Below are positions 31,997 through 48,541 of a DNA stretch of 48,695 nt, in pieces (within the stretch, counting starts at the first letter, position 1; every line of letters starts with the position of its first letter). The translations under genes and the position numbers were made by a program. Source of the DNA: a virus. The DNA lies in the IMG/VR virus record IMGVR_UViG_3300022413_000016, positions 1 to 48,695 of that record, one strand, 5' to 3'. Under the pieces are notes generated by a model. That model had not been told where the DNA came from and did no database searches. It saw nothing but the letters and a program-made list of their open reading frames with translations.

Positions 31997-33046
31997 ATGC
32001 ACCGAAACCCCGGCCCCAATTCTGGACCCTCCTCGAGTTTCGTGAACGGCGACCCGGTCGCCGGCACGCCGGGGACGATCGTCGACGGCGGCTATATGAC
32101 GTCGGTGCAGGAGGAGCTCGCCGGATTCGTCGAGGGGCAGGGTCTAACGCTCGACGTCGCGGATAATACCCAACTCCAAACGGCGATCCTCCAGGCGATC
32201 ACGACAACCGGCCTCCGAAACCCGCTCATAAATCCCGGCTTCGACGTCTGGCAACGCGGGACCACGGCCACGGTAAGCGCCGGCGGGAAATATACGGCCG
32301 ATCGATGGTTTCAGGAGTCGAGCCTAATCGGAAACTCCACGCTCACGACGTCAAGGGTTGCCGCGGCTCCGGGCGACATCGGCGTAACCCTTCCCCAGGG
32401 CACTAAGCATTTTATCGAAATCGATTGGGCCGCCGGCGGGGGCGGGGGCGCGCGCGGCTACCTCGAGCAACGTATCGAGAATGTCCGGAGGTACGCGGGC
32501 AAGGTCCTAAACGTGTCGTTTTACGCAAAGCGGAAAAACGCGGGTACAAACGTGCTCGTTATTCCGCGGATCGTTCAAAACTTCGGGAGTGGCGGCTCGC
32601 CCCAGGTTATTACGACGGGGACGAATCAGAACGTACTTACGGGAGTATGGGCGCGCTACGATACGACTATCGCGGTCCCGACCATTGCCGGGAAAATCAT
32701 CGGCTCGAGCGGCGACGATTGGCTCGGGATACGCCTCGAGCACGATATTCCCGACCTCTCGGCGGGCGGGCATTTCGCGCAGGTCGAGGTACACGTCGGG
32801 ACGGCGCCCCCGCCGGCGGAAATACGCCCGACCGAGACCGAGCTCGCTCTTTGCATGCGCTACTTCCAAAAGAGCTACAACGTCGACACGGCCCCGGGGA
32901 GCAACGCGGGCGCGGGCGTCCTCCACGGGCACGACGTATCCGGTCCGAATATCCAACCCTTGCAACGCCTGTTCCCGGTTCGCATGCGCGCCTCGCCCTC
33001 GGTCGTTTGGTACGCGCCGACCGGGCAATCAACCGCGTTAACGTAA
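31997..33046 (+). CDS. Tail fibre protein, C-terminus cut by a frameshift
   Basis: 349 residues. The N-terminal part (FVNGDPVAGTPGTIVDGGYM, about 15-34) attaches to baseplates in related fibres. NPGFDVWQRGTTATVSAGGK followed by YTADRWF begins a carbohydrate-binding-like jelly roll (about 80-275). The closing block ELALCMRYFQKSYN...FPVRMRASPSVVWYAPTG is a common fibre C-terminus, but it ends early. The missing segment, NRVNVNTVDEVVTG to YTAEAEI, lies in the -1 frame up to 33177 and has no start codon. This looks like an indel or sequencing error, or less likely a programmed shift, as no good slippery site is seen. Confidence 0.75.
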   Translation: MHRNPGPNSGPSSSFVNGDPVAGTPGTIVDGGYMTSVQEELAGFVEGQGLTLDVADNTQLQTAILQAITTTGLRNPLINPGFDVWQRGTTATVSAGGKYTADRWFQESSLIGNSTLTTSRVAAAPGDIGVTLPQGTKHFIEIDWAAGGGGGARGYLEQRIENVRRYAGKVLNVSFYAKRKNAGTNVLVIPRIVQNFGSGGSPQVITTGTNQNVLTGVWARYDTTIAVPTIAGKIIGSSGDDWLGIRLEHDIPDLSAGGHFAQVEVHVGTAPPPAEIRPTETELALCMRYFQKSYNVDTAPGSNAGAGVLHGHDVSGPNIQPLQRLFPVRMRASPSVVWYAPTGQSTALT

Positions 33047-33177: not shown

Positions 33178-33953
33178 TGGCCGACGTCCAGGGGGTTTAT
33201 CGGCTGATCGGCGTCGACGATACCGGCGGCGTTTTCGAGATAGCGTCGAGCAAGTTCATACCGAACGACCTCGCTAATACCGACTGGCGGACGTATCTCG
33301 CCTGGAAAGCCGACAACGACGCTACGGCCGACGCGGCGATCGGGCTAACGACGCTCGAGGACTACAAGCTCGACGCTAAGACGCGGATCGATCTCGAGGC
33401 CGACCAGGAAATCGCGCGACAGGTCGCGAGCTTCGGGGGCGCGTTTGGCCTGGCCGGCGGCCGCGCGGCGCTGGGTTTTGTTTACGGCGAGCTCCTCCGC
33501 GAAGCGTGGTACGAAAATATAGACGGGACGCCGACCGTTGGCGATTACCCCTTGTGCAATTCGCTCGTTAGCGTCCTGGGCGCGACCGACTTCCAAGACG
33601 CCGCGAGCAAAATTCGGACGGAATGGTCGGCGGTCGTCGCCGGCGTTGCGGCGGTCCTTCAATCGCAACGGGCGGCCCATATCGATATCGACGCGGCGGC
33701 TAGCGAGGCGGCGGTCGACGCGGTCCGCGGCGGCGTTGACTTCCCGATTTACCCGGCGGCCGCGGCGGCCTTCCCCTCGACCTCGGTTTCCGGCTCCGTT
33801 GGCTCGGGCGATAACCTGCTTGCGCCGATCGCGGCGAGCGCCGAAACCCTCACGCTGATAGGCGCCGTCGGGGTGACCTCGGGCGCGAACCAGACGGTAA
33901 GCGCGCCGGCGGTCTCGGCGAGCCTCTCGGCCGTTACCCCATCGGTGACCTAA
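33177..33953 (+). CDS. Tail fibre-associated protein with terminal repeat motif
   Basis: 258 residues from a GTG overlapping the preceding TAG. N-terminal part starts MADVQGVYRLIGVDDTGGVF and is followed by a helical region (TLEDYKLDAKTRIDLEADQE, about 60-79). The C-terminus carries one unit of the repeat found many times in the protein at 37674: TVSAPAVSASLSAVTPSVT. It may be an adaptor whose end plugs into the repeat shaft. No family recognised. Confidence 0.6.
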   Translation: MADVQGVYRLIGVDDTGGVFEIASSKFIPNDLANTDWRTYLAWKADNDATADAAIGLTTLEDYKLDAKTRIDLEADQEIARQVASFGGAFGLAGGRAALGFVYGELLREAWYENIDGTPTVGDYPLCNSLVSVLGATDFQDAASKIRTEWSAVVAGVAAVLQSQRAAHIDIDAAASEAAVDAVRGGVDFPIYPAAAAAFPSTSVSGSVGSGDNLLAPIAASAETLTLIGAVGVTSGANQTVSAPAVSASLSAVTPSVT

Positions 33954-34408
33954 TGGCGAACCTGGTATTTCGTAAAGCCCGCTTGCGCGCCTTCGAGAAG
34001 CAGCTCGACATTACCTCGGGCCTAAAGGTCCTGCTCGTAATGACCTCGAGCGCCGTAACGGCAAACCTCGGGATTGAATTCCTGGGCGATTTGAGCGCCG
34101 GGCAGCTCGACGAAAACGACGGCGCCGGCTATACGGCCGGGGGGGTGGCCCTTACCGCGGTCGCCTGGGCCGAGGACCCGACCGCGGACCTCGTCCGCCT
34201 CACGGCTGACGACGTCGATTTCGGATCGCTCTCGGCCGGCGCCCGGGCGATCAAAGGGGCCATTCTCTACAAGGACGTCACGACCTACGCGAATAGCCCC
34301 GTTTTGGGCTGGATCGATACGGTAGATGGCGGCCCGCCTTTCCCCTACGCTCTGAACGGAGGGCCGTTCAAGCTCCTATGGCCCTCGTCGGGCATCATCG
34401 AATTCTAG
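33953..34408 (+). CDS. Phage tail-region protein, single fibre-type domain
   Basis: 151 residues. LKVLLVMTSSAVTAN followed by a YTAGGVALTAVAWAED block and AIKGAILYKDVTT is a pattern seen in many phage tail-region proteins of unknown function. It resembles in outline the repeated domain of the next gene. Likely a structural component of the fibre or its cap. Confidence 0.6.
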   Translation: MANLVFRKARLRAFEKQLDITSGLKVLLVMTSSAVTANLGIEFLGDLSAGQLDENDGAGYTAGGVALTAVAWAEDPTADLVRLTADDVDFGSLSAGARAIKGAILYKDVTTYANSPVLGWIDTVDGGPPFPYALNGGPFKLLWPSSGIIEF

Positions 34409-34426
34409 GAACCACGGACTAAGCAA

Positions 34427-35353
34427 ATGGCCGGAATCACAAACCGAGGTAAGGCGCTCCTCCTCAAGCTCTTTTTTCAGGGTATCGAGGACCCGGCGGG
34501 GCTTTCCTTTTTCGTCGCCCTGGGGACCAATGACACGCCCCCGACCGCCGACTCGAACACGCTCGCGGACGTCTCCCAAATCGCAACCGGAAACGGCTAT
34601 ACCGACGGGGGGCTCGCGGTCGCGCGGGATAACGTCGATTGGGACGTCCTGACCGAGGACGACGTAAACGACCGCGCCCTAATCCAAGCAATCGATCAAG
34701 TCTGGACGGCCTCGGGTGGTTCGATCCCGTCGGGGGGCAACGGTGCGCGCTGGGCGTTCCTGCTTACCGACGAGGTTACGGCCTCGACCCGCCAGATTAT
34801 CGCCTATTGGGATCTCGCGTTCGACCGCACGATCTCGACCGGCCAAACGCTCACGCTCCAAAACCTCGAGCTCCGCCTTAACGGTTTCCTCGGGATGACC
34901 AACCGCGGCGCCTACTTGCTCTTGCAGCTCTACTTTCAGGCGGTCAACCCGCACGGGTCGTTTACTGGATTCTACCTCGCGTTGCTCGACGACGCCGAGG
35001 CGCCGAATGCCGATTGGGATACGATGACCGGGCGGAGCGAAATCCCGAGCGGGAACGGCTACACGTCGGGCGGGATCGCGGTCGCGCGCGATAACGTCGA
35101 TTTCGACGTCCTGACCGAGGACGACGGAAACGACCGCGCGCTCGTCCAAATAAAAGACATCACCTGGACGGCGTCGGGCGGAAACCTGCCGAGCGCCGGC
35201 AACGGTGCGCGTTACGCGGTCCTTTTGACCGACGAGGCCACGGTCGGAAGCCGGCAAACGATTGGCACCTTCGACCTCGGCGCTAATTGGTTCGCGAGCT
35301 CCGGCCAGGATCTCGTATTGCAAGATTCCGAACTCCGGATAAACGAAAGCTAG
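34427..35353 (+). CDS. Fibre protein with two tandem copies of one domain
   Basis: 308 residues: residues 1-152 and 153-308 are homologous. Each starts ITNRGKALLLKLFFQ/MTNRGAYLLLQLYFQ, then has a DxxxPxADxxT block, GNGYT(D/S)GG(L/I)AVARDNV, WTASGG and a closing LRL/LRI strand. The same domain pair ends the large protein at 45350. The domain is likely a beta-sandwich used for trimerisation or receptor binding. Confidence 0.65.
   Translation: MAGITNRGKALLLKLFFQGIEDPAGLSFFVALGTNDTPPTADSNTLADVSQIATGNGYTDGGLAVARDNVDWDVLTEDDVNDRALIQAIDQVWTASGGSIPSGGNGARWAFLLTDEVTASTRQIIAYWDLAFDRTISTGQTLTLQNLELRLNGFLGMTNRGAYLLLQLYFQAVNPHGSFTGFYLALLDDAEAPNADWDTMTGRSEIPSGNGYTSGGIAVARDNVDFDVLTEDDGNDRALVQIKDITWTASGGNLPSAGNGARYAVLLTDEATVGSRQTIGTFDLGANWFASSGQDLVLQDSELRINES
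35002..35026. repeat. 25-bp identity with the C-terminal domain of the protein at 45350
   Basis: Identical to 48196-48220 (core AATGCCGATTGGGATACGAT), encoding PNADWDTM in both. Confidence 0.75.
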
Positions 35354-35357
35354 CTAA

Positions 35358-35831
35358 ATGGTCTGGTACAACAACGGTAAGGGCCTCATGCTCGACCCCA
35401 ACCTCTCGCCGGTCGGCGAGGGGCCGCTCCTCCTGCTCTCTGATCGGATCATCATTGCGCTGATGAAGGCCGCCTATGCGGTCGACATCGACGCGCACCA
35501 CGACTTCGCCGACACGGGAGTTTCTACGAACGAAATCGTTTGCACCGGCTACACGGCTCGCGGTGATAACAATCCGCTCGCCGGCAAAACCGTAACCGTC
35601 GACGACGCGAACGACCGGGCCGAATTTGACGCGAACGACCTCGTATATACGGCGCTCGGCAACGGCACAAACGATACATTCGACGAAATTATCATCATGC
35701 GCGAGCAGGACGCCGGCGCAACCGACGCAAATACGATGCTACTCGCGCACGCCTCGGTATCCTCGACGACCACAAACGGCGGAAACATAACCCTGGTTTT
35801 CAATGCCGAGGGAATCCTCCAACTCTCCTAG
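35358..35831 (+). CDS. Tail-region protein, 157 residues
   Basis: Starts MVWYNNGKGLMLDPNLSPVG. The rest is beta-rich, with VTVDDANDRAEFDANDLVYT (about 74-93) and FDEIIIMREQDAG, features shared with many small phage proteins near fibres. Function unknown; probably part of the distal tail. Overlaps the next gene by 29 bases. Confidence 0.6.
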   Translation: MVWYNNGKGLMLDPNLSPVGEGPLLLLSDRIIIALMKAAYAVDIDAHHDFADTGVSTNEIVCTGYTARGDNNPLAGKTVTVDDANDRAEFDANDLVYTALGNGTNDTFDEIIIMREQDAGATDANTMLLAHASVSSTTTNGGNITLVFNAEGILQLS

Positions 35832-36402
35832 CGACTTCGCTCTACGCTACTCGCGCTCGTCGGGGTTCTGGTCGATTCGCCACGTTCTAAGCGGTCGCTC
35901 GGTCCTCGCGAAGCGGGTACGGATCGACGCGCCCTGTCGCACCTGGCGGGTCCCACCCGGCGAGGAGAGCCTCGCCGGCGAGCTCCTGGTCGTCGGGGCG
36001 CTCAACGCTTCGGAAATCCTGTCATTGAGCGGTAACGGGGCCGTCGCCGGGGACCTTCGAATCCTCCCCGACGGTCCGGCCCCGCCGGGCAAGGTCAACC
36101 CCGACCCGATGCTCGAATGGGTCGCGCTCTACGACGAGGGCTCGCGGCGGTGGGTTGTGTACCGGCACGGGGTCGAGGGCGTAACCGTCACGACCGAGGA
36201 CCTTTCCATAGAATGCCACGCGATTAGCTCGGGCGGTGCGCTGCACTGTTTTTGCGAAATGCTCGCCAGGGGGGCCACGAACAAAACCGATAAGCTCGTC
36301 GATTGTGATAGCGTCCGATTGCGCACCTTGCGGGTGCATAACCAGGAGGTCGCCGTCCCGATCATGGGCGAGGCCAAACCGCTTTCGAGGTCGCTTTATT
36401 GA
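35803..36402 (+). CDS. Hypothetical tail-region protein, 199 residues
   Basis: Starts inside the end of the preceding gene. Composition is beta-rich with repeated short Gly/Val/Leu strands (AGELLVVGALNASEILSLSG), and there are four Cys. No family recognised. The stop overlaps the sulfatase TTG start (TTGA), so the two are co-translated. Confidence 0.5.
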   Translation: MPRESSNSPSDFALRYSRSSGFWSIRHVLSGRSVLAKRVRIDAPCRTWRVPPGEESLAGELLVVGALNASEILSLSGNGAVAGDLRILPDGPAPPGKVNPDPMLEWVALYDEGSRRWVVYRHGVEGVTVTTEDLSIECHAISSGGALHCFCEMLARGATNKTDKLVDCDSVRLRTLRVHNQEVAVPIMGEAKPLSRSLY

Positions 36403-37628
36403 AACTCGCTCGCCACTTCGGCGCGTTGCTCTTGTGCGCAACTGCATCCGCTCAAAACGTCTTGATCCTTGTAGCCGACGACCTCGGCGTCGACGGGGTG
36501 CGCGCCTATGGCGAATATCTAGACGAGCCGCGGACGCCTAACCTCGACGCACTGGCGGCGTCGGGCGTGCTATTCCGCAATGCTTGGTCGTATCCGTCCT
36601 GCTCGGCTTCCCGCGCGGCAATGCTTACGGGCCGACACGGCTTTCGAACCGGCATCGGCTTTGCGCTCCCGCAGGGCGCTCCCGGCTTGTCACTGGCGGA
36701 GGACACCCTGCCGGAGCTCATGCCGGGATACGCCTCCGGGCTTTTCGGTAAATGGCACCTGGGAGGCCCGGGGCTGCCCGAGCTGACGCCCAACGCTGCG
36801 GGGTGGGGATATTTTGCCGGGATGCTTTGGGCCGGAGTGCCCAGCTATTACGCCTGGACAATGGTAAAAAACGGCGCATCGATTCCGGTAGCGACGTATT
36901 CGACGACGGCAATAACAAACCAGGCGGCCTACTGGATAACGCAAGTCGCGCGCGAGCCGTGGGTTTGCCAGGTTGCCTACAATGCCCCGCACAGACCGTG
37001 GGAGTACCCACCGGCCAACCTCCATAGCTACCCCGGCGGGGGCGGCCCCTTGGTACAGCATTTCGCAATGCTCGAGGCAATGGACGCCGAAATCGGCCGA
37101 CTGCTTTCTTACGTCGACTTGTGCCGGACAACGGTCATTTTTTGCGGGGATAACGGCACGCACGGAACCGTCTATCAGGGCCCATCGCCGGGGGCCAAGC
37201 TTAGCCCCTATGAAGGCGGCCTAAACGTGCCGTTGATTCTGGCAGGCGCCGGCGTCGTCGGTCCGCGAGAGGAGTTAGCCCTCGTCCATCTGGTCGACGT
37301 ATTCGCGACGACCCTCGATGTCGCGGGCGTTGCGGTTCCGGCGGGATCGGATTCGGTAAGCCTGCTCCCATACGCGGGGGGCCCCTCCGTTCCGTTGCGC
37401 TCGACCGTTTTTACCGAAAGTTTCGGCGCGCCTAGCGCGCTATGGAATTTCGAGGCTATCCGTGACGCGCGCTATAAGCTGGTCAACTATGGATTGGTGG
37501 AAGAGCTCTACGACCTGGCGGTCGACCCAAACGAAACGAGTAACCTGATGCTCGGGTTGCTAACCCCCGGACAATTGATTGCGCTCGAGGCGCTGCGGTC
37601 GGAAATACTGGCAATCAAGGGGGGGTGA
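36399..37628 (+). CDS. Secreted sulfatase (type I, Cys-type)
   Basis: 409 residues from a TTG that overlaps the previous stop. A signal peptide is clear (MKLARHFGALLLCATASAQ, likely cut after AQ). The type I sulfatase active site is complete by eye: D27 and D28 for Ca, the formylglycine motif C68-S-A-S-R72 with LTGR after it, K118 and H120 in FGKWHLGG, H198 in NAPHRPW, D251 and N252, and K267 before YEGGLNVPLI. The motif has Ala in place of the common Pro. The C-terminus has ELYDLAVDPNETSNL, usual for the family. It should remove sulfate esters from polysaccharide outside the cytoplasm. Host formylglycine-generating enzyme would be required, as none is encoded here. Confidence 0.92.
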   Translation: MKLARHFGALLLCATASAQNVLILVADDLGVDGVRAYGEYLDEPRTPNLDALAASGVLFRNAWSYPSCSASRAAMLTGRHGFRTGIGFALPQGAPGLSLAEDTLPELMPGYASGLFGKWHLGGPGLPELTPNAAGWGYFAGMLWAGVPSYYAWTMVKNGASIPVATYSTTAITNQAAYWITQVAREPWVCQVAYNAPHRPWEYPPANLHSYPGGGGPLVQHFAMLEAMDAEIGRLLSYVDLCRTTVIFCGDNGTHGTVYQGPSPGAKLSPYEGGLNVPLILAGAGVVGPREELALVHLVDVFATTLDVAGVAVPAGSDSVSLLPYAGGPSVPLRSTVFTESFGAPSALWNFEAIRDARYKLVNYGLVEELYDLAVDPNETSNLMLGLLTPGQLIALEALRSEILAIKGG

Positions 37629-37673: not shown

Positions 37674-40600
37674 GTGGCGGACATCCGGATAAGGGCCGTT
37701 CGCGCGGCGATTCGAACCGGAACGGGGACCCAAGACTTTACGGTTTCGGGTTTTGGTACGCCGAAAGCGGCGCTCGCGCTGTACTCATACGCAACCGCCG
37801 ACGAAACGGAGGCCAACCACGCCGGGCTAGGTATCGGCGCGTGGGATGGCACGAACGAGCGAAGCGCCTTCACCTGGCGCGAGCATGACCTCGGAACGTC
37901 GGACGCCGGCGGCCATGTGTCCGATACAAAATTCCTCCGGATCCTCGACCAGGCAAACGCAACCCTGGCAGAGTGTGACGCGGATTCATTCATAACCGAC
38001 GGGGTCCGGCTCGACTGGACCACGATGGGCGCCGCGGCCGAGGGGACCTTGCTGACGGTTGTTCTTTTCGGCGGCGACGACCTGAGCGCCGCGGTAGGTC
38101 ACAAGGCGGGAGCGGGTACAGTCAACGGCACGGCGGCCGTTACCGGGCTCGGCTTCGAGCCCGACCAGGTAGTCGCGTTCGGGTGTATGGGCCAGAACCC
38201 GTCCGCGACCGCGTTCGACGATGCAAAAATGACGGTCGGCTTTTGCGACAACGGAGCCGGCATCGTCCAGCGAAGCCACGGATTCTATTTTCAGGACAAC
38301 GTCGGCACGACTAGCTACGGGGGCCAGGACTCACAAACCTACGTAGCGCGAAGTAACACGACCGCACTGCAAAGCGCGCTCGAGATAACGTCATTTGAAA
38401 GCGGCGGTTTTACGCTAACCACGCGGGTTAGTACGACCGAGGTCCCGACCGTTTGCTTTTTGGCGCTCGAGTATGGGGGGGCGAGCCATTGGGTTGGGGA
38501 TCAAAGTACGCTCACCTCGACGGGAAACCAGAACATAACGGCCCCGGGATTCGATACGCAGGCCGCGCTCGCGTTCTACGGCTTTCACCAGGATTTCGAC
38601 ACGATCGTAGTCGTGAACTCGGCCGCTCCCCTGTCTGTCGGGGTATTGACAAAAAACGAGGAGTTTTCGCACGGCGTAACGGGACGCGACAATTCGAACA
38701 CAACGGACGAACATTCCTGGACCGCGTCCAAATTCCTATTTAGCCGGAACTATGTAGGAAACCAGGGCTATGACGGGGCCGGTACGCCCGACTCGCTCGG
38801 TTTCGACGTCAACTTTACTAAGGTTCTGGGCGTTGCGAGGCACGCGCACTACCTCGCGGTCGAGGTTGGCACGATCGCGGTCCCGGCGGTCTCGGCGGCG
38901 CTTGGCGCGGTCGCGCCCGCGCGCATCGACCAGGAGGTCGCGGTCCCGGCCGTGTCCTCGAGCGCCGCGGTCGTGGCGCCGAGCGTTACCGGCGCGCAGT
39001 CTGTAGCGGTCTCGGCGACGCCGGCGACTTTGGCGGTCGTGGCGCCGGCCCGCCTCGACCTCGAGACGGCCGTCCCGGCGGTGGCGGCGAGCTCGGCGGC
39101 CCTGGCGCCCGAGCGGATCGATCTCGAGGCGGCAATCCCGGCGGTGGCGGCGGCCTCCGCGGTCGTCGCGCCCGACCGGACCGACCTCGAGGCGGCCGTC
39201 CCGCCGGTGGCGGCGAGCTCGGCGGTGATCACCCCCGACCGGCTCGACCTCGAGGTCGCCGTCCCGGCGGTCTCGGCGGCCCTGGCCTCGGTCGTTCCGG
39301 ATATCTACTTCGACCAAACGGTCGGGGTCCCGGCGGTCTCGGCGGCCCTGGCGGCGGTGGCGCCCGACCGGACCGATCTCGAGGCGGCCGTCCCGCCGGT
39401 GGCGGCTAGCTCGGCGGTGATCACCCCCGACCGGCTCGACCTCGAGGTCGCCGTCCCGGCGGTCTCGGCGGCCTCTGCGGTCGTCGCCCCGGGCGTGGGC
39501 GGAGGGCAGAACGTCGCCACGCCGGCCACGGCGGCGACCCTGGCGGTCGTCGCCCCCGACCGCCTCGACCAAACCGTTAGCGTGCCGGCCACGTCCGCGA
39601 GCGCCGCCGTGGTGGCGCTCGACGTGGCTTTCGACCAGGCGATCGGGGTCCCGGCGAGCTCCTCGAGCGCCGCCGTGGTGGCGCCGGAGCGGCTCGACCT
39701 CGAGGCCGCGGTCCCGGCGGTGCCGGCGAGCTCGGCGGCCCTGGCTCCCGATCGGATCGACCTCGAGGCGGCCGTCCCGGCGGTGCCCGCGAGCTCGGCG
39801 GTGGTCGCCCCCGACCGCCTCGACCTGGTTATCGTTCCCGAGGCAATCCCCGGGGTCGCGTCCTCGGCGGTCCTGGCGCCCGACCGGATCGACCAAACGG
39901 TCGGCGTCCCGGCGGTGCCGGCGGCCCTGGCGGCCGTCACCCCGAGCGTTGGCGGCGCCCAAATCGTCGCGGTGCCGGCGGTCTCGGCGGCGCTCTCCGT
40001 TGCTCCGTTGCCCCAATCGGTCGGGGTCCCGGCGGTCTCGGCGGCCCTGGGCGTGGTTGCTCCCGGGAGCGTCGACCGAACGGTCGCGGTCCCGCCAATC
40101 GTGGCGGGAACCTTCGCGGACGTGGGTCCGCGGGTGCTCCGGATCGATCTCGAGGTCGGGGTAAACCCGCCCGACGCGCCGGTCGAGGCCTTTTCGGCCG
40201 TCCTGGCGCCCGCCCGGATCGACCAAACGGCCCAGGTCCTCGAGACCCCGCTCGCGACCTTCGACTCGCCAGGGGCCGCCCAGGTCGACCAAACGGCCAC
40301 GGTGCCGTCGGTCTCGGCGAGCTCGGCGGCGGTGGCTCCCGACCGGGTCGACCAGGCGATCGACGTCCCGGCCGCCTCGGCGAGCCTGCTCGTGCCGGCC
40401 CCCAACGTCGGCACGCTCCAAACTGTCGCCGTCCCGGCCACGGCGGCCAGCTCGAGCGCCGTCGCGCCCGACCGGGTCGACCAAACGAGCAACCTCCCGG
40501 CCACGCCCGCGAGCGCCGGCGTACTGGCCCCGGAGGTCTATTTCGCCCAAGGGGTCGCGGTCCCGCCGGCGGCCTCGAGCGCCGGCGTGGCGGCCCTGGA

Positions 40601-41249
40601 TCGGATCGACCAAACGGTCGGCGTCCCGGCGGTGCCGGGCGCCCTAGGGGTCGTCGCTCCGACCTTCTTCGGCGAGGTCGCGGTCCCGGCGGTCTCGGCG
40701 ACCCTGGCGGCCGTTGCCCCCCGGGTCGACCAGGCGATCGACGTCGGGGCAATCTCGGCGGCCCTGGCGGTCGTGGCGCCCGATCGCGTCGACCAGGTCT
40801 CGGTAGCGGTCCCGGCCGCCTCGGCGACCCTGGGCGTCGTAGCGCCCGACCGGGTCGACCAGGCGATCGACGTGCCGGCTACGCCGGCGCTCCTGCTCGC
40901 GATCGCGCCTAACCTCGATTCCGACCAGGCGGTCGGCGTGCCAGTCGTGGCGGCCGTCCTGGGCGTCCTGGCGCCGGGCACCTTCGAAGGTCTGGCCCAG
41001 CCGGCCCCGGCCGAGGCGCGCATCGGGCCTAAGCAAGGCTACCCGATCGTCGTCGTAACGATCCCCCCAATAGCGCCGGCGGGCGCCTTTACCGAGACCC
41101 TGGTAGGCCTGGCGCGCACGATTCACGTACTCGAGGGCTCGGTCGCGATAGGCCAGACCCAGGATGGGTCCGCGACCATCGGCCAGACCCAGGAGGGCGA
41201 GGCCTCGGTCGTAAGCGTCCAGGAGGCCGAAACGGCGCTCCTCCCGTAA
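37674..41249 (+). CDS. Giant fibre protein with about 33 short repeats
   Basis: 1,191 residues from a GTG start. Residues 1-400 form a globular beta-rich region (VSGFGTPKAALALYSYATAD, and a second related block with FDTQAALAFYGFHQDFDTI), looking like two copies of one beta-sandwich. Residues about 402-1110 are roughly 33 units of 20-22 residues, consensus VAVPAVSAALAVVAPDRIDQ. The end (about 1110-1191) has GSVAIGQTQDGSATIGQTQE. Such short repeats of alternating Val and Ala with Pro and Asp turns fit a trimeric beta-spiral or beta-solenoid shaft. No Lys or Cys occurs in the repeats. The DNA repeats too, so the number of units may vary. Confidence 0.75.
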   Translation: MADIRIRAVRAAIRTGTGTQDFTVSGFGTPKAALALYSYATADETEANHAGLGIGAWDGTNERSAFTWREHDLGTSDAGGHVSDTKFLRILDQANATLAECDADSFITDGVRLDWTTMGAAAEGTLLTVVLFGGDDLSAAVGHKAGAGTVNGTAAVTGLGFEPDQVVAFGCMGQNPSATAFDDAKMTVGFCDNGAGIVQRSHGFYFQDNVGTTSYGGQDSQTYVARSNTTALQSALEITSFESGGFTLTTRVSTTEVPTVCFLALEYGGASHWVGDQSTLTSTGNQNITAPGFDTQAALAFYGFHQDFDTIVVVNSAAPLSVGVLTKNEEFSHGVTGRDNSNTTDEHSWTASKFLFSRNYVGNQGYDGAGTPDSLGFDVNFTKVLGVARHAHYLAVEVGTIAVPAVSAALGAVAPARIDQEVAVPAVSSSAAVVAPSVTGAQSVAVSATPATLAVVAPARLDLETAVPAVAASSAALAPERIDLEAAIPAVAAASAVVAPDRTDLEAAVPPVAASSAVITPDRLDLEVAVPAVSAALASVVPDIYFDQTVGVPAVSAALAAVAPDRTDLEAAVPPVAASSAVITPDRLDLEVAVPAVSAASAVVAPGVGGGQNVATPATAATLAVVAPDRLDQTVSVPATSASAAVVALDVAFDQAIGVPASSSSAAVVAPERLDLEAAVPAVPASSAALAPDRIDLEAAVPAVPASSAVVAPDRLDLVIVPEAIPGVASSAVLAPDRIDQTVGVPAVPAALAAVTPSVGGAQIVAVPAVSAALSVAPLPQSVGVPAVSAALGVVAPGSVDRTVAVPPIVAGTFADVGPRVLRIDLEVGVNPPDAPVEAFSAVLAPARIDQTAQVLETPLATFDSPGAAQVDQTATVPSVSASSAAVAPDRVDQAIDVPAASASLLVPAPNVGTLQTVAVPATAASSSAVAPDRVDQTSNLPATPASAGVLAPEVYFAQGVAVPPAASSAGVAALDRIDQTVGVPAVPGALGVVAPTFFGEVAVPAVSATLAAVAPRVDQAIDVGAISAALAVVAPDRVDQVSVAVPAASATLGVVAPDRVDQAIDVPATPALLLAIAPNLDSDQAVGVPVVAAVLGVLAPGTFEGLAQPAPAEARIGPKQGYPIVVVTIPPIAPAGAFTETLVGLARTIHVLEGSVAIGQTQDGSATIGQTQEGEASVVSVQEAETALLP
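38880..41000 (+). repeat. DNA-level tandem repeats of about 63-66 bp coding for the shaft
   Basis: Units read CCGGTGGCGGCGAGCTCGGC and GACCGGCTCGACCTCGAGGT with substitutions; unit length stays a multiple of three. At least one two-unit block (about 39173-39272 and 39361-39456) is nearly identical, pointing to recent duplication. Confidence 0.75.
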
Positions 41250-43943: not shown

Positions 43944-44366
43944 GTGGCTAAGGTCCTCGTATGCGGCAAGACGGGCTCGGGTAACCGCCTGGTAGTTTCG
44001 CTACTGCGCGCGGCGGGGGTGCGGACAATGCTTTATCACGGGGAGCGCCAGGCCAACGGCATTAGGTGGAGCGGTAACCCGAAGGACCCCGAATCGTGGA
44101 CGCACCTCGTTATCCCGATCCGCGACGAGCGTTATCGGCAGCTCTCGAGGACGCGCGTCCGCCCCGAGTGGTCGGAACCCGATTGGGATCGCTACGCCTT
44201 CGCCTGGCGCTACGGGATCCCGATTCTAGAGGTCGAATATCGCGCAATCGTCGAGCGCCCCGGGCGCACGCGAATAGGGATACTGGAATTTGTAGGCGCG
44301 CCGAGTTCGACCCCTTGGCCGACCATCATTTACGACGCGGACGCAAAATACTCTAACCAGGGATAA
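43944..44366 (+). CDS. Small P-loop protein, sulfotransferase-like
   Basis: 140 residues from a GTG. The N-terminus KVLVCGKTGSGNRLVVSLLR (about 3-22) has a glycine loop that resembles the 5'-phosphosulfate loop of sulfotransferases or a degenerate Walker A. LVIPIRDERYRQLSRTRV (about 55-72) matches the family's RDPR...S region at a distance. It is half the usual enzyme length. Related small proteins occur near phage fibre genes. A sulfotransferase role is speculative but notable because the genome also encodes a sulfatase. Confidence 0.45.
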   Translation: MAKVLVCGKTGSGNRLVVSLLRAAGVRTMLYHGERQANGIRWSGNPKDPESWTHLVIPIRDERYRQLSRTRVRPEWSEPDWDRYAFAWRYGIPILEVEYRAIVERPGRTRIGILEFVGAPSSTPWPTIIYDADAKYSNQG

Positions 44367-45349: not shown

Positions 45350-48300
45350 ATGAGCGAAACGACTTGGGCACCGTTCCTAATCCGATCGCCGTTCGAATCG
45401 GCGCAGTACCAGCTAAACAAGGCGAAACCCTGGGGCGAGGCGCATCAAATCCACCTATGTATAACCCGGCACAAGCGCGACCCGAACCTAATCGTTATTG
45501 CGCAAGATTGCTCCCCGCCCCTTTGGAGCCCGAACAACCACGGCCACTGGTTACGCGCGCAGGGGATCGGGCTCCCGTTGCCGGGCCGGACGTCGATCGA
45601 GGTCGACCCCGAGGACCCGAAACATTGGGTTATCAACGTACACGAAACTTTCAAGTCGAACGCGAAACAGCTCGCCGGGCTTTATCGGACGCTCGACGGC
45701 GGGCAAACCTGGGCGTTTGCCCTGCCGGCGCCGCACACCTACTCGAACACTTACCGCAAGTCGATCGCCTACGATCCCGCGAGCATTTCGAGCGGGCGCG
45801 CGCAGGTTTGGTATCACGTACAGGTAAAGATTTCCGAGGCCACGGGCCGGCCCGAAACCATCGTTTACAAGTCGACGCAAGCGGCGGCGCCCGACACCTG
45901 GGCGGAAGTATTCCGTATAGACTCCGGCGCGGCACCTCTCGAGCAGGTCACAAACGAAACCGTATGGTGCCATCCGACCGACGGGCAGACCGTTTGGGTC
46001 GCCCATTACACGGGCGTATGGAAAAGCACGAACGGGGGCGCGTCCTTCTCTCTTACCGGCATGGCCGGGTCTTGTACCTCGATTGCGCCGCACCCGACAA
46101 ACGGCTCGGTCGTCTACGCGATCCTCGACGACCAGCTAAAACGGAGCGACGACGGCGGCGCGTCGATTGCTTTTACGAAGTCGACGCCCTACGCAATGCG
46201 CTACGTCTTCGTCAACGCCGGCTATCCCAATACGGTGATGGTTACGCCGAAAACGGGGAGCGACCTCGATCATCCGATAATGACGCAGGACGCGCAGAAC
46301 GGCCCGGCCGCGACCTGGAGCCTAAACGGCGCGACGGTCGCAAATGGGCGTATGGTTCCCTTGACGGGTCTGGAGCGGGGGACGGCGGTCAATACCCGAC
46401 TATCGACAAAATGGACGGCGGCAAGTCTCGACCCGCTCGACCCCAACCGCGCGAGCATCATTGGCGCCGCGCGGACCTTCACGTTTGACTACCCGACCTC
46501 GACCTTTACCGAATCAACCGATACTCAAGGCGGTTTCAACTTTGGGGGTATTCAATACTCGGTCGCCTGGGATCCTGTCGACCCGAATCGTTCTGTATGG
46601 TTTTTCGTCGATGTCGGGATTGCCAAAACCCTCGACGGCGGCCAATCGTTCGAGATCATTAGCGACCCGATCGCCGGTTTCGTGGGTAGCGGAGAGCTCC
46701 GAGGGTCCGGGGTGCGATCCGGCCCGGGCGACCTCGAGCCGATCGCCGGCGGTCAAAAAATTATTGCGGTAATCGGGGCCAACGGGCAGAGCTCCCAAAA
46801 GCTCGTGATATCGCACAATTTCGGCGCGACTTGGTCGGTCCCGCTCGTGTCCGGCGGCCCGCAAGTATTCCAAGACAATCTCCGCTGTTTTTTCCATCGC
46901 CAAAACCCCTCCACCATTTACGCCGGTCGGATCATGTCGACCGATGGCGGGGCGACTTTTTCGAATGTGACTTGGGACCAGGTCGGGGGCGGTTCCTTCG
47001 CGGCCGCGAACCCGCGCATAATCGCCCAGACGCGGGCCGACTGCGACGTCGTATGGGCGGTTTCGGCGGACCGGCGCACGCTCTATAAGTCCGTCAACGC
47101 CGGGGCCGAGTGGGTCGAGGAGGACACGCCCGGGTGGCCCTTCGTACAGTTTGGCGCGGCGGTCGTAATGGAGGCCGATCCGGTCGACCCAAACGTTTTT
47201 TATGCCGGCGACGCGCAGGGGGATATCTCGCGTTGGAACGGCTCGAGCTGGACGTCGCTAAACGTGCTCGCGCGGGTAACGCCGACGCTAACCGATCCGG
47301 GGCAGTTTACGTTTATTTTCGGAATCGCGATCGACCCTAACGACCCACAACATATTGCCTTTGCACCCTGGTCGGCGGGGACCGCGACCATACTCCGCAC
47401 GCGCGACGGGGGCGCGACGATCGAGGATATAACTTTTAACGCAATTCGGACCCCGACGAATGCAATTCAATTCAACCCGCACACGGGGACGCTTATCGAA
47501 TGCGCTTGTCCCGCGGTTTGGGGCCTTCCGCGACCGGGTACGTATACGCCGGGCGTCGACCCGCAATACGACCTCGGGCTCGAGATCATCGAGAACTTTT
47601 ACAACGCGGAGCCGCCTCCCCCGCTCCCGACTCTCGCGTCCTGGACCGCGCGCGGTAAGCGGCTTCTCCTCGAGACCTACCTAACCGGCTCGGCGCTTCC
47701 GGGAACGGGCTTCAATGTCGCACTGGTGACCGACGCCGTACCGCCGACGCCGGCGACGCTCACGCTCGGCGACCTGGTCGAGGTTGCGGCAGGGAACGGG
47801 TACGTATCGGGCGGGCTCGCTCGGGCGCGTAGCGCCGCGGGATTCCCCTCGCTCGTCGAAATGGACGCCCAGGACCAGGCGCGGGTAACGATCGGCGATC
47901 CGATTTGGAGCGCGGTCGGCGGTTCGATCCCGGCCTCCGGCGACCCGGCCCGTTGGCTCGTGCTCACGACCGACGAGGCCACGCCGGCCGACCGCCAGGT
48001 CCTCGCCTTTTGGGATCTATTCGCCGATCGGACGATCCAAAACGGCCAAATCTTGCACCTGCAAAATACCCGGCTCTCGGCAAAGGGTTTCGCCGGCGTT
48101 ACCAACCGCGGCGCCTTCCTTATGCTCGACCACTTTTTCCACGCGGCCGCGGTCGGGTCTGACTTCTACCTCGCGTTCCTCGACGACTCCGAGCCGCCGA
48201 ATGCCGATTGGGATACGATGGCGGGCCGCGCGGAAATCCCGGCGGCTAACGGGTACGTCGCCGGCGGGTCGAGTTTCGCAAAGGCGCCCGGATCCTGGAC

Positions 48301-48541
48301 CCTGCTCGAGGTCGCGAGCTCGAGCGCGAGCGCGCGCATGCTCGACCGCACGCTCGCGGCCGCCGGCGGGCCCTTGCCCCAAACCGGGCCGGGCATACGC
48401 TACCCGGTCCTAACGACCGACGAGGGCGCGCCGCCCGACCGCCAGATAATCGCGGTTTTCGACACGGGTACAAATTGGCAACTCGCGGACGGCGAAACGC
48501 TGACCCTAGGCGGAATGCAACTCGAGCTAACGGAGCCTTAA
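45350..48541 (+). CDS. Asp-box beta-propeller protein, tail-spike candidate
   Basis: 1,063 residues. Asp-box (BNR) motifs S/T-x-D/N-x-G-x-x-W/F recur: YRTLDGGQTWAF (about 111), VWKSTNGGASFS (224), LKRSDDGGASIAF (264), AKTLDGGQSFEI (424), STDGGATFSNV (528), YKSVNAGAEWVE (578) and LRTRDGGATIED (681). This fits a sortilin/Vps10- or sialidase-like propeller (about 20-740). The C-terminus (about 760-1063) holds two copies of the domain in the protein at 34427. Propellers in tail spikes bind or cut glycans; catalytic residues are not evident. Overlaps nothing and ends one base before the junction gene. Confidence 0.75.
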   Translation: MSETTWAPFLIRSPFESAQYQLNKAKPWGEAHQIHLCITRHKRDPNLIVIAQDCSPPLWSPNNHGHWLRAQGIGLPLPGRTSIEVDPEDPKHWVINVHETFKSNAKQLAGLYRTLDGGQTWAFALPAPHTYSNTYRKSIAYDPASISSGRAQVWYHVQVKISEATGRPETIVYKSTQAAAPDTWAEVFRIDSGAAPLEQVTNETVWCHPTDGQTVWVAHYTGVWKSTNGGASFSLTGMAGSCTSIAPHPTNGSVVYAILDDQLKRSDDGGASIAFTKSTPYAMRYVFVNAGYPNTVMVTPKTGSDLDHPIMTQDAQNGPAATWSLNGATVANGRMVPLTGLERGTAVNTRLSTKWTAASLDPLDPNRASIIGAARTFTFDYPTSTFTESTDTQGGFNFGGIQYSVAWDPVDPNRSVWFFVDVGIAKTLDGGQSFEIISDPIAGFVGSGELRGSGVRSGPGDLEPIAGGQKIIAVIGANGQSSQKLVISHNFGATWSVPLVSGGPQVFQDNLRCFFHRQNPSTIYAGRIMSTDGGATFSNVTWDQVGGGSFAAANPRIIAQTRADCDVVWAVSADRRTLYKSVNAGAEWVEEDTPGWPFVQFGAAVVMEADPVDPNVFYAGDAQGDISRWNGSSWTSLNVLARVTPTLTDPGQFTFIFGIAIDPNDPQHIAFAPWSAGTATILRTRDGGATIEDITFNAIRTPTNAIQFNPHTGTLIECACPAVWGLPRPGTYTPGVDPQYDLGLEIIENFYNAEPPPPLPTLASWTARGKRLLLETYLTGSALPGTGFNVALVTDAVPPTPATLTLGDLVEVAAGNGYVSGGLARARSAAGFPSLVEMDAQDQARVTIGDPIWSAVGGSIPASGDPARWLVLTTDEATPADRQVLAFWDLFADRTIQNGQILHLQNTRLSAKGFAGVTNRGAFLMLDHFFHAAAVGSDFYLAFLDDSEPPNADWDTMAGRAEIPAANGYVAGGSSFAKAPGSWTLLEVASSSASARMLDRTLAAAGGPLPQTGPGIRYPVLTTDEGAPPDRQIIAVFDTGTNWQLADGETLTLGGMQLELTEP
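48196..48220. repeat. 25-bp identity with the fibre gene at 34427
   Basis: Identical to 35002-35026 within homologous domains. Confidence 0.75.

Follow-up and report, generated by a model that had tools for sequence, protein, structure and literature searches.

Descriptions of sulfatases concern bacterial and eukaryotic enzymes with catabolic or lysosomal functions. Our search of the open-access literature, with preprints and most subscription papers outside its scope, returned no phage- or virus-encoded sulfatase, and we state the novelty of such an enzyme with caution. Formylglycine-generating enzymes (FGE) have been reported in Pseudoalteromonas phages (PMC10232697), and DGRs of Desulfovibrio prophages target proteins of the FGE-sulfatase fold (PMC12724379), but these proteins belong to the maturation-enzyme family or adopt a lectin-like fold and are not sulfatases.

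Here we analyze a gene for a putative sulfatase in a 48.7 kb IMG/VR record (the whole of this stretch is referred to as the window). The best PDB match to its product is PsS1_19B (6prm and 6psm; 3.3e-28 by sequence), an exo-4S-κ-carrageenan S1 sulfatase. PsS1_19B is a bacterial catabolic enzyme with the same FGly and metal sites, whereas the phage-borne window protein has ∼60 fewer residues and carries the motif CSASR. Three chromosomal proteins from Verrucomicrobiota and Planctomycetota (L100, L101, and L102; 42–49% identity) share its catalytic core, but they lie in bacterial contexts, often contain extra N- or C-terminal domains, and lack the downstream partner described below. The sole matching PHROG, 19870 (1.5e-25), is functionally unannotated, and thus a phage family for such proteins already exists without a name.

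Sequence, active site, and fold of the sulfatase

Positions 36399–37628 (+ strand) encode, from a TTG start, a 409-residue protein that we assign to the S1-family (type I, formylglycine) sulfatases from its PF00884 match, its AlphaFold2 model, and its Foldseek similarity to PsS1_19B. PF00884 is matched over the full profile (1–301; E = 2.6e-37, 129 bits against a cut-off of 25), and SGSH_C provides a second Pfam match (6.8e-10). The catalytic motif C68-S-A-S-R72 (36600–36614, +), located by alignment, sequence, and published consensus, contains the cysteine for conversion to formylglycine. Both PSCSASRAAMLTG, which spans the catalytic pattern, and GYASGLFGKWH match the SulfAtlas consensus patterns (PMC5066984) exactly. 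The first SulfAtlas calcium pattern is matched at all but its first position; the second is not matched as written, and D251-N252-G253 is present nonetheless. In the FGly motif the window protein has an alanine where almost all relatives carry proline, a substitution permitted by the published consensus C/S-X-P/A-S/X-R, also given as C/S-X-P/A-X-R (PMC10154612).

Ten residues (D27, D28, C68, R72, K118, H120, H198, D251, N252, and K267) are invariant across 32 aligned phage and bacterial sulfatases, and the window enzyme retains the calcium ligands (D27, D28, D251, and N252) together with K118, H120, H198, and K267. The AlphaFold2 model (pLDDT 93.4, pTM 0.92, low confidence in the first ∼20 residues) shows an alkaline-phosphatase-superfamily fold, with a TM score of 0.85 to 6psm (0.85/0.79 for PsS1_19B, at 26–27% identity). 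The top Foldseek matches in the PDB are carbohydrate sulfatases, with PsS1_19B ranked first, including S1_19, S1_16, and S1_15 enzymes, human arylsulfatase A, and a 4-sulfatase. A sequence-only reading of this DNA had proposed a full-length type I sulfatase with its active-site residues in place; the full PF00884 profile, all 10 catalytic and metal residues, and the structural model bear this out, and the product is almost certainly the S1-type FGly hydrolase that sequence and model predict.

Ahead of the catalytic core lies MKLARHFGALLLCATASAQ, which resembles a Sec-type signal peptide (36399–36452, +) by eye and by its hydrophobicity; it is likely cut after ATASA (residue 18), and model confidence is low over residues 1–20. 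The same reading had noted a signal peptide, and on this evidence the enzyme does look exported. A hydrophobic, signal-like N terminus is found in 12 of 15 phage sulfatases (the window and 11 of 14 others), with lipobox-like LLAAC, LIAC, or LVAAC motifs in three of them; the sulfatases of L001, L014, and L016 have no signal-like segment. Searches of the window and of seven other sulfatase phage contigs returned no formylglycine-generating enzyme, whereas FGE-family matches occur in 9/9 bacterial genomes holding close relatives, although the Pfam family used also includes non-FGE proteins. Because the phage appears to lack its own FGE, maturation of Cys68 must presumably depend on a host enzyme, unless the phage encodes an anaerobic radical enzyme.

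Genomic setting and relatives in other phages

The window encodes small and large terminase subunits, portal, capsid-protease, sheath, tape measure, hub, baseplate, and tail fibre proteins. It is a contractile-tailed phage contig, and the sulfatase lies within its tail-appendage region. A phrog_4492 tail fibre gene (at 31997) and a run of phrog_644 proteins (33953–35831) are followed by a gene for a 199-residue protein (35803–36402, +) and then by the sulfatase. The gene had been described as sitting between tail-fibre genes; this holds for the region, with phrog_4492 and phrog_644 nearby, but not for the immediate neighbours, as neither 35803–36402 nor 37674–41249 has a family match. The upstream gene, with which co-translation had been proposed, shares a 4-base overlap with the sulfatase: the TGA stop of 35803–36402 sits inside TTGA and overlaps the TTG start. 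A Shine-Dalgarno-like GAGGT (36387–36391, +) lies 7 bases 5′ of that start. In a comparison of 17 large window genes, the sulfatase has the lowest codon-adaptation-like value (0.52 versus 0.60–0.69) and the lowest GC3, as would fit a later acquisition.

Further genes of the window deserve mention. Three successive genes at 33953–35831 contain phrog_644-like domains (two of them in 34427–35353) and represent an expanded tail-appendage family. A 1063-residue protein at 45350–48541 has a sortilin/BNR-like propeller signal below the cut-off and a phrog_644-like C-terminal part, and is probably a second tail appendage. A 140-residue open reading frame (43944–44366, +) carries sulfotransferase-like motifs at its N terminus (VCGKTGSGNRLVVSLLRAAG) and C terminus (EVEYRAIVERPGRTRIGILEFVG), as well as IRDERYRQLS, with R and S spaced eight apart. 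A sulfotransferase was suspected from these motifs, and neither HMM nor PDB searches gave support for it; if real, one phage would have an enzyme for adding sulfate as well as one for removing it.

Pattern scans over 2.9 million viral contigs, far from exhaustive, located relatives of the sulfatase in at least 14 other distinct IMG/VR contigs. One more is found on a 64 kb contig (G641:C31) filed in a Myxococcota-group genome, which is no proof of host; the contig is itself a phage, with major head protein, tape measure, TerL (phrog_38), and portal. Sulfatases appear rare in phages, as had been stated: by tblastn, only 24 of 50,697 phage records match the window sulfatase, and the two that we opened look bacterial. 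Campylobacter phage A11a and Bacteriophage sp. MT835490 were discounted as phage examples, their sulfatases lying within bacterial-type sequence. In MG065691.1 (L236) and MT835490.1 (L237) the sulfatase is ringed by transporters, acetolactate synthase, a Na/H exchanger, and a radical SAM enzyme, and these are likely bacterial sequences within public phage records.

In a tree with bacterial sulfatases, as had been recommended, 11 viral sulfatases (L001–L003, L005–L008, and L010–L013) form a separate group (SH-aLRT 98), which chromosomal L213 joins in a second tree. Those of the 11 and of the G641 phage that were aligned have 10/10 active-site residues, and eight of these proteins are paired with the partner domain. 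The window sulfatase lies outside the group of 11; it branches among chromosomal proteins from Verrucomicrobiota, Planctomycetota, and other taxa, and weakly beside the sulfatase of the G641 phage. An AU test does not reject a single clade of the window and other phage sulfatases (p-AU 0.126 and 0.132), so that we claim neither a single nor a multiple origin; the sequences point to at least one capture from bacteria, and possibly several. Three loci with branches close to the 11 (L213, L217, and L221) were inspected and set aside, their surroundings looking like ordinary chromosome. The sulfatases of L014 and L016, both without a signal peptide, sit on a long branch, are 54% identical to each other, and represent a second, divergent phage lineage. 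A search for the host through TerL in 289 Verrucomicrobiota-group genomes gave two prophage-like matches only (35–36%) and was not informative. We regard the window gene as truly belonging to the phage and as encoding an S1 sulfatase, probably active on carbohydrate, that ultimately derives from bacteria.

Besides its sulfatase, the phage of L012 carries genes for NeuB (5.7e-38), for a polysaccharide-biosynthesis dehydratase (9.4e-73), and for a DegT aminotransferase (L193, 6167–7081; L194, 6814–8569), which amount to a phage-borne sugar pathway of nonulosonic-acid type. P-loop proteins with a resemblance to sulfotransferases occur in three sulfatase phages (L193, 13555–14130; L180, 15437–16048; L185, 7981–8586), one of them with a Sulfotransfer_4 match (0.0066) below the cut-off.

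The downstream partner gene

When all called window proteins were compared with the neighbourhoods of other viral sulfatases, only the product of 37674–41249 (+) recurred strongly besides the sulfatase itself. This partner, delineated from ORF calls and alignment, has 1191 residues and consists of an N-terminal ∼395-residue all-β domain (A2; 37674–38867, +, defined by alignment and model) and a degenerate repeat beyond it (VPAVSAALAVVAPDRID...). The C-terminal ∼800 residues (38868–41249) form a degenerate ∼20-residue repeat (VPAVSAALAVVAPDRIDLEAA...) and are poor in aromatic residues. A2 is encoded directly 3′ of the sulfatase in the window and in eight other phages (L001, L002, L003, L006, L007, L008, L012, and L226, the last being the G641 phage); the partner is absent next door in 7 of 16 viral sulfatase loci. 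Single-sequence comparisons detect A2 at 4e-19, 9e-19, and 2e-10, and at 4e-10 for the G641 phage, and the remaining matches come from profile iterations and are somewhat less independent. Sulfatase and partner genes are at most 46 bases apart or overlap, with a GTGA overlap in L001, L003, and L007.

The phages that carry this pair are otherwise dissimilar. In six whole contigs of paired phages, sulfatase and partner are the sole window homologues, and G641:C31 has the pair and the tape measure in common with the window. Where classified, the TerL proteins of the sulfatase phages fall into three PHROG families (phrog_15 for the window, phrog_2 for both L003 and L005, and phrog_38 for G641), and the pair is found after the tail fibres (window), beside the terminase (L001 and L003), or between portal and head genes (G641). 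Apart from the G641 phage, the partner is missing from all of the ∼100 bacterial sulfatase loci that we inspected. Outside sulfatase loci, the window domain returned no pattern match in viral contigs and nothing in 50,697 phage records, and a search with a four-sequence alignment (A4) recovered only its own four contigs, the full A2 alignment being too divergent as a query. A second partner-related protein is encoded further downstream in one paired phage (G014). The same pair in unrelated phages argues for a recurrent two-gene unit and not a chimeric insert; the sequence comparisons suggest that this unit is transferable, the alternative being independent pairing.

The AlphaFold2 model of A2 is all-β (pLDDT 76, pTM 0.83) and has no confident PDB match, and Pfam returned no match for the partner at E = 0.01, DUF7483 included. 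Predicted structures of viral DUF7483-domain proteins (e.g. A0A6J5QL19) match A2 with a Foldseek probability of 1.00, but the TM scores are just 0.37/0.25 and we do not claim membership. A structural, surface-exposed role for the partner is plausible, and it is probably an adhesin or tail appendage; given these low-TM matches and the lack of a confident PDB hit, we use adhesin as an inferred term. Position alone is no proof of a tail role, since the pair lies between portal and head genes in G641.

Proposed role and competing explanations

We consider it about an even prospect that the gene encodes a late, host-exported carbohydrate sulfatase acting on a sulfated surface glycan, perhaps the receptor of the partner; export, substrate, partner function, and benefit are what we infer here. 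The sulfatase would be translated along with the neighbouring tail-region genes, its Cys68 would be converted to formylglycine by the infected host's own sulfatase-maturing enzyme, and its N-terminal signal would direct export through the Sec system. Beyond the membrane, it would remove sulfate from a sulfated surface or matrix glycan of the host. This glycan may be the one recognised by the partner, because the partner gene adjoins the sulfatase in most related phages. Late desulfation could then free progeny from debris and matrix and block re-adsorption, in the manner of a receptor-destroying enzyme. A bolder and more tentative proposal is that sulfatase and A2 are a mobile module between unrelated phages, combining a sulfated-glycan adhesin with its own exported receptor-destroying sulfatase. 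The logic would be comparable to that of influenza viruses, with their paired receptor-binding and receptor-destroying proteins.

The enzyme might instead be the product of an auxiliary metabolic or lysogenic-conversion gene, allowing an infected cell or a lysogen to draw sulfate or sugars from environmental sulfated polysaccharide, with an incidental structural neighbour. Its exported appearance would fit, as would its nearest bacterial relatives (42–49% identity), which are chromosomal genes of Verrucomicrobiota and Planctomycetota, groups described as rich in sulfatases for polysaccharide use (PMC6388578). We find such a nutritional gain unlikely and less favoured: nine phages have this partner directly behind the sulfatase, an arrangement that one would not expect of a free-standing nutritional gene, neither a glycoside hydrolase nor a transporter adjoins it, and no integrase was identified among the window proteins scanned (an incomplete set). 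The conserved downstream partner thus favours a surface role over pure nutrition.

Similarly doubtful is a virion-borne enzyme that would be carried by the tail or the partner and would desulfate capsule at adsorption, like a depolymerase tailspike. The sulfatase does lie in the tail-appendage region, closely coupled to a structural-type gene, and in L016 a central tail fibre J gene lies upstream of the sulfatase. Exported proteins, however, are not normally built into virions in the cytoplasm, and the prevalence of signal-like N termini among the phage sulfatases, three of them lipobox-like, points to secretion from infected cells and tells against a simple virion enzyme.

It appears quite improbable that the protein is a phosphonate monoester hydrolase or phosphodiesterase with substrates such as teichoic-acid-like or lipid phosphodiesters. 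SulfAtlas S1_0 members bear FGly yet are phosphohydrolases (PMC5066984), the active-site residues are the same, and a weak Phosphodiest match (Pfam, 4.4e-4) falls below the cut-off, but the closest PDB sequences and folds are carbohydrate sulfatases. An assembly chimera or bacterial contamination, suggested by the lowest codon-adaptation-like value and GC3 and by nearest sequences that are bacterial, is largely refuted and most improbable given the 4-base overlap with the upstream gene, partner synteny in eight other phage contigs, and a stretch in which no bacterial genes flank the sulfatase.

An exported, surface-acting sulfatase remains the reading we prefer. Phage sulfatases reliant on maturation by the host would narrow host range to bacteria that possess the maturing enzyme. 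If the adhesin and receptor-destroying module is real, sulfated bacterial envelopes or matrices would constitute a class of phage receptor. Our analysis offers a compact set of phage sulfatases, and a pair conserved in otherwise unrelated phages would imply a part in infection for sulfate groups on bacterial surface or matrix glycans and may provide a handle on the receptor.
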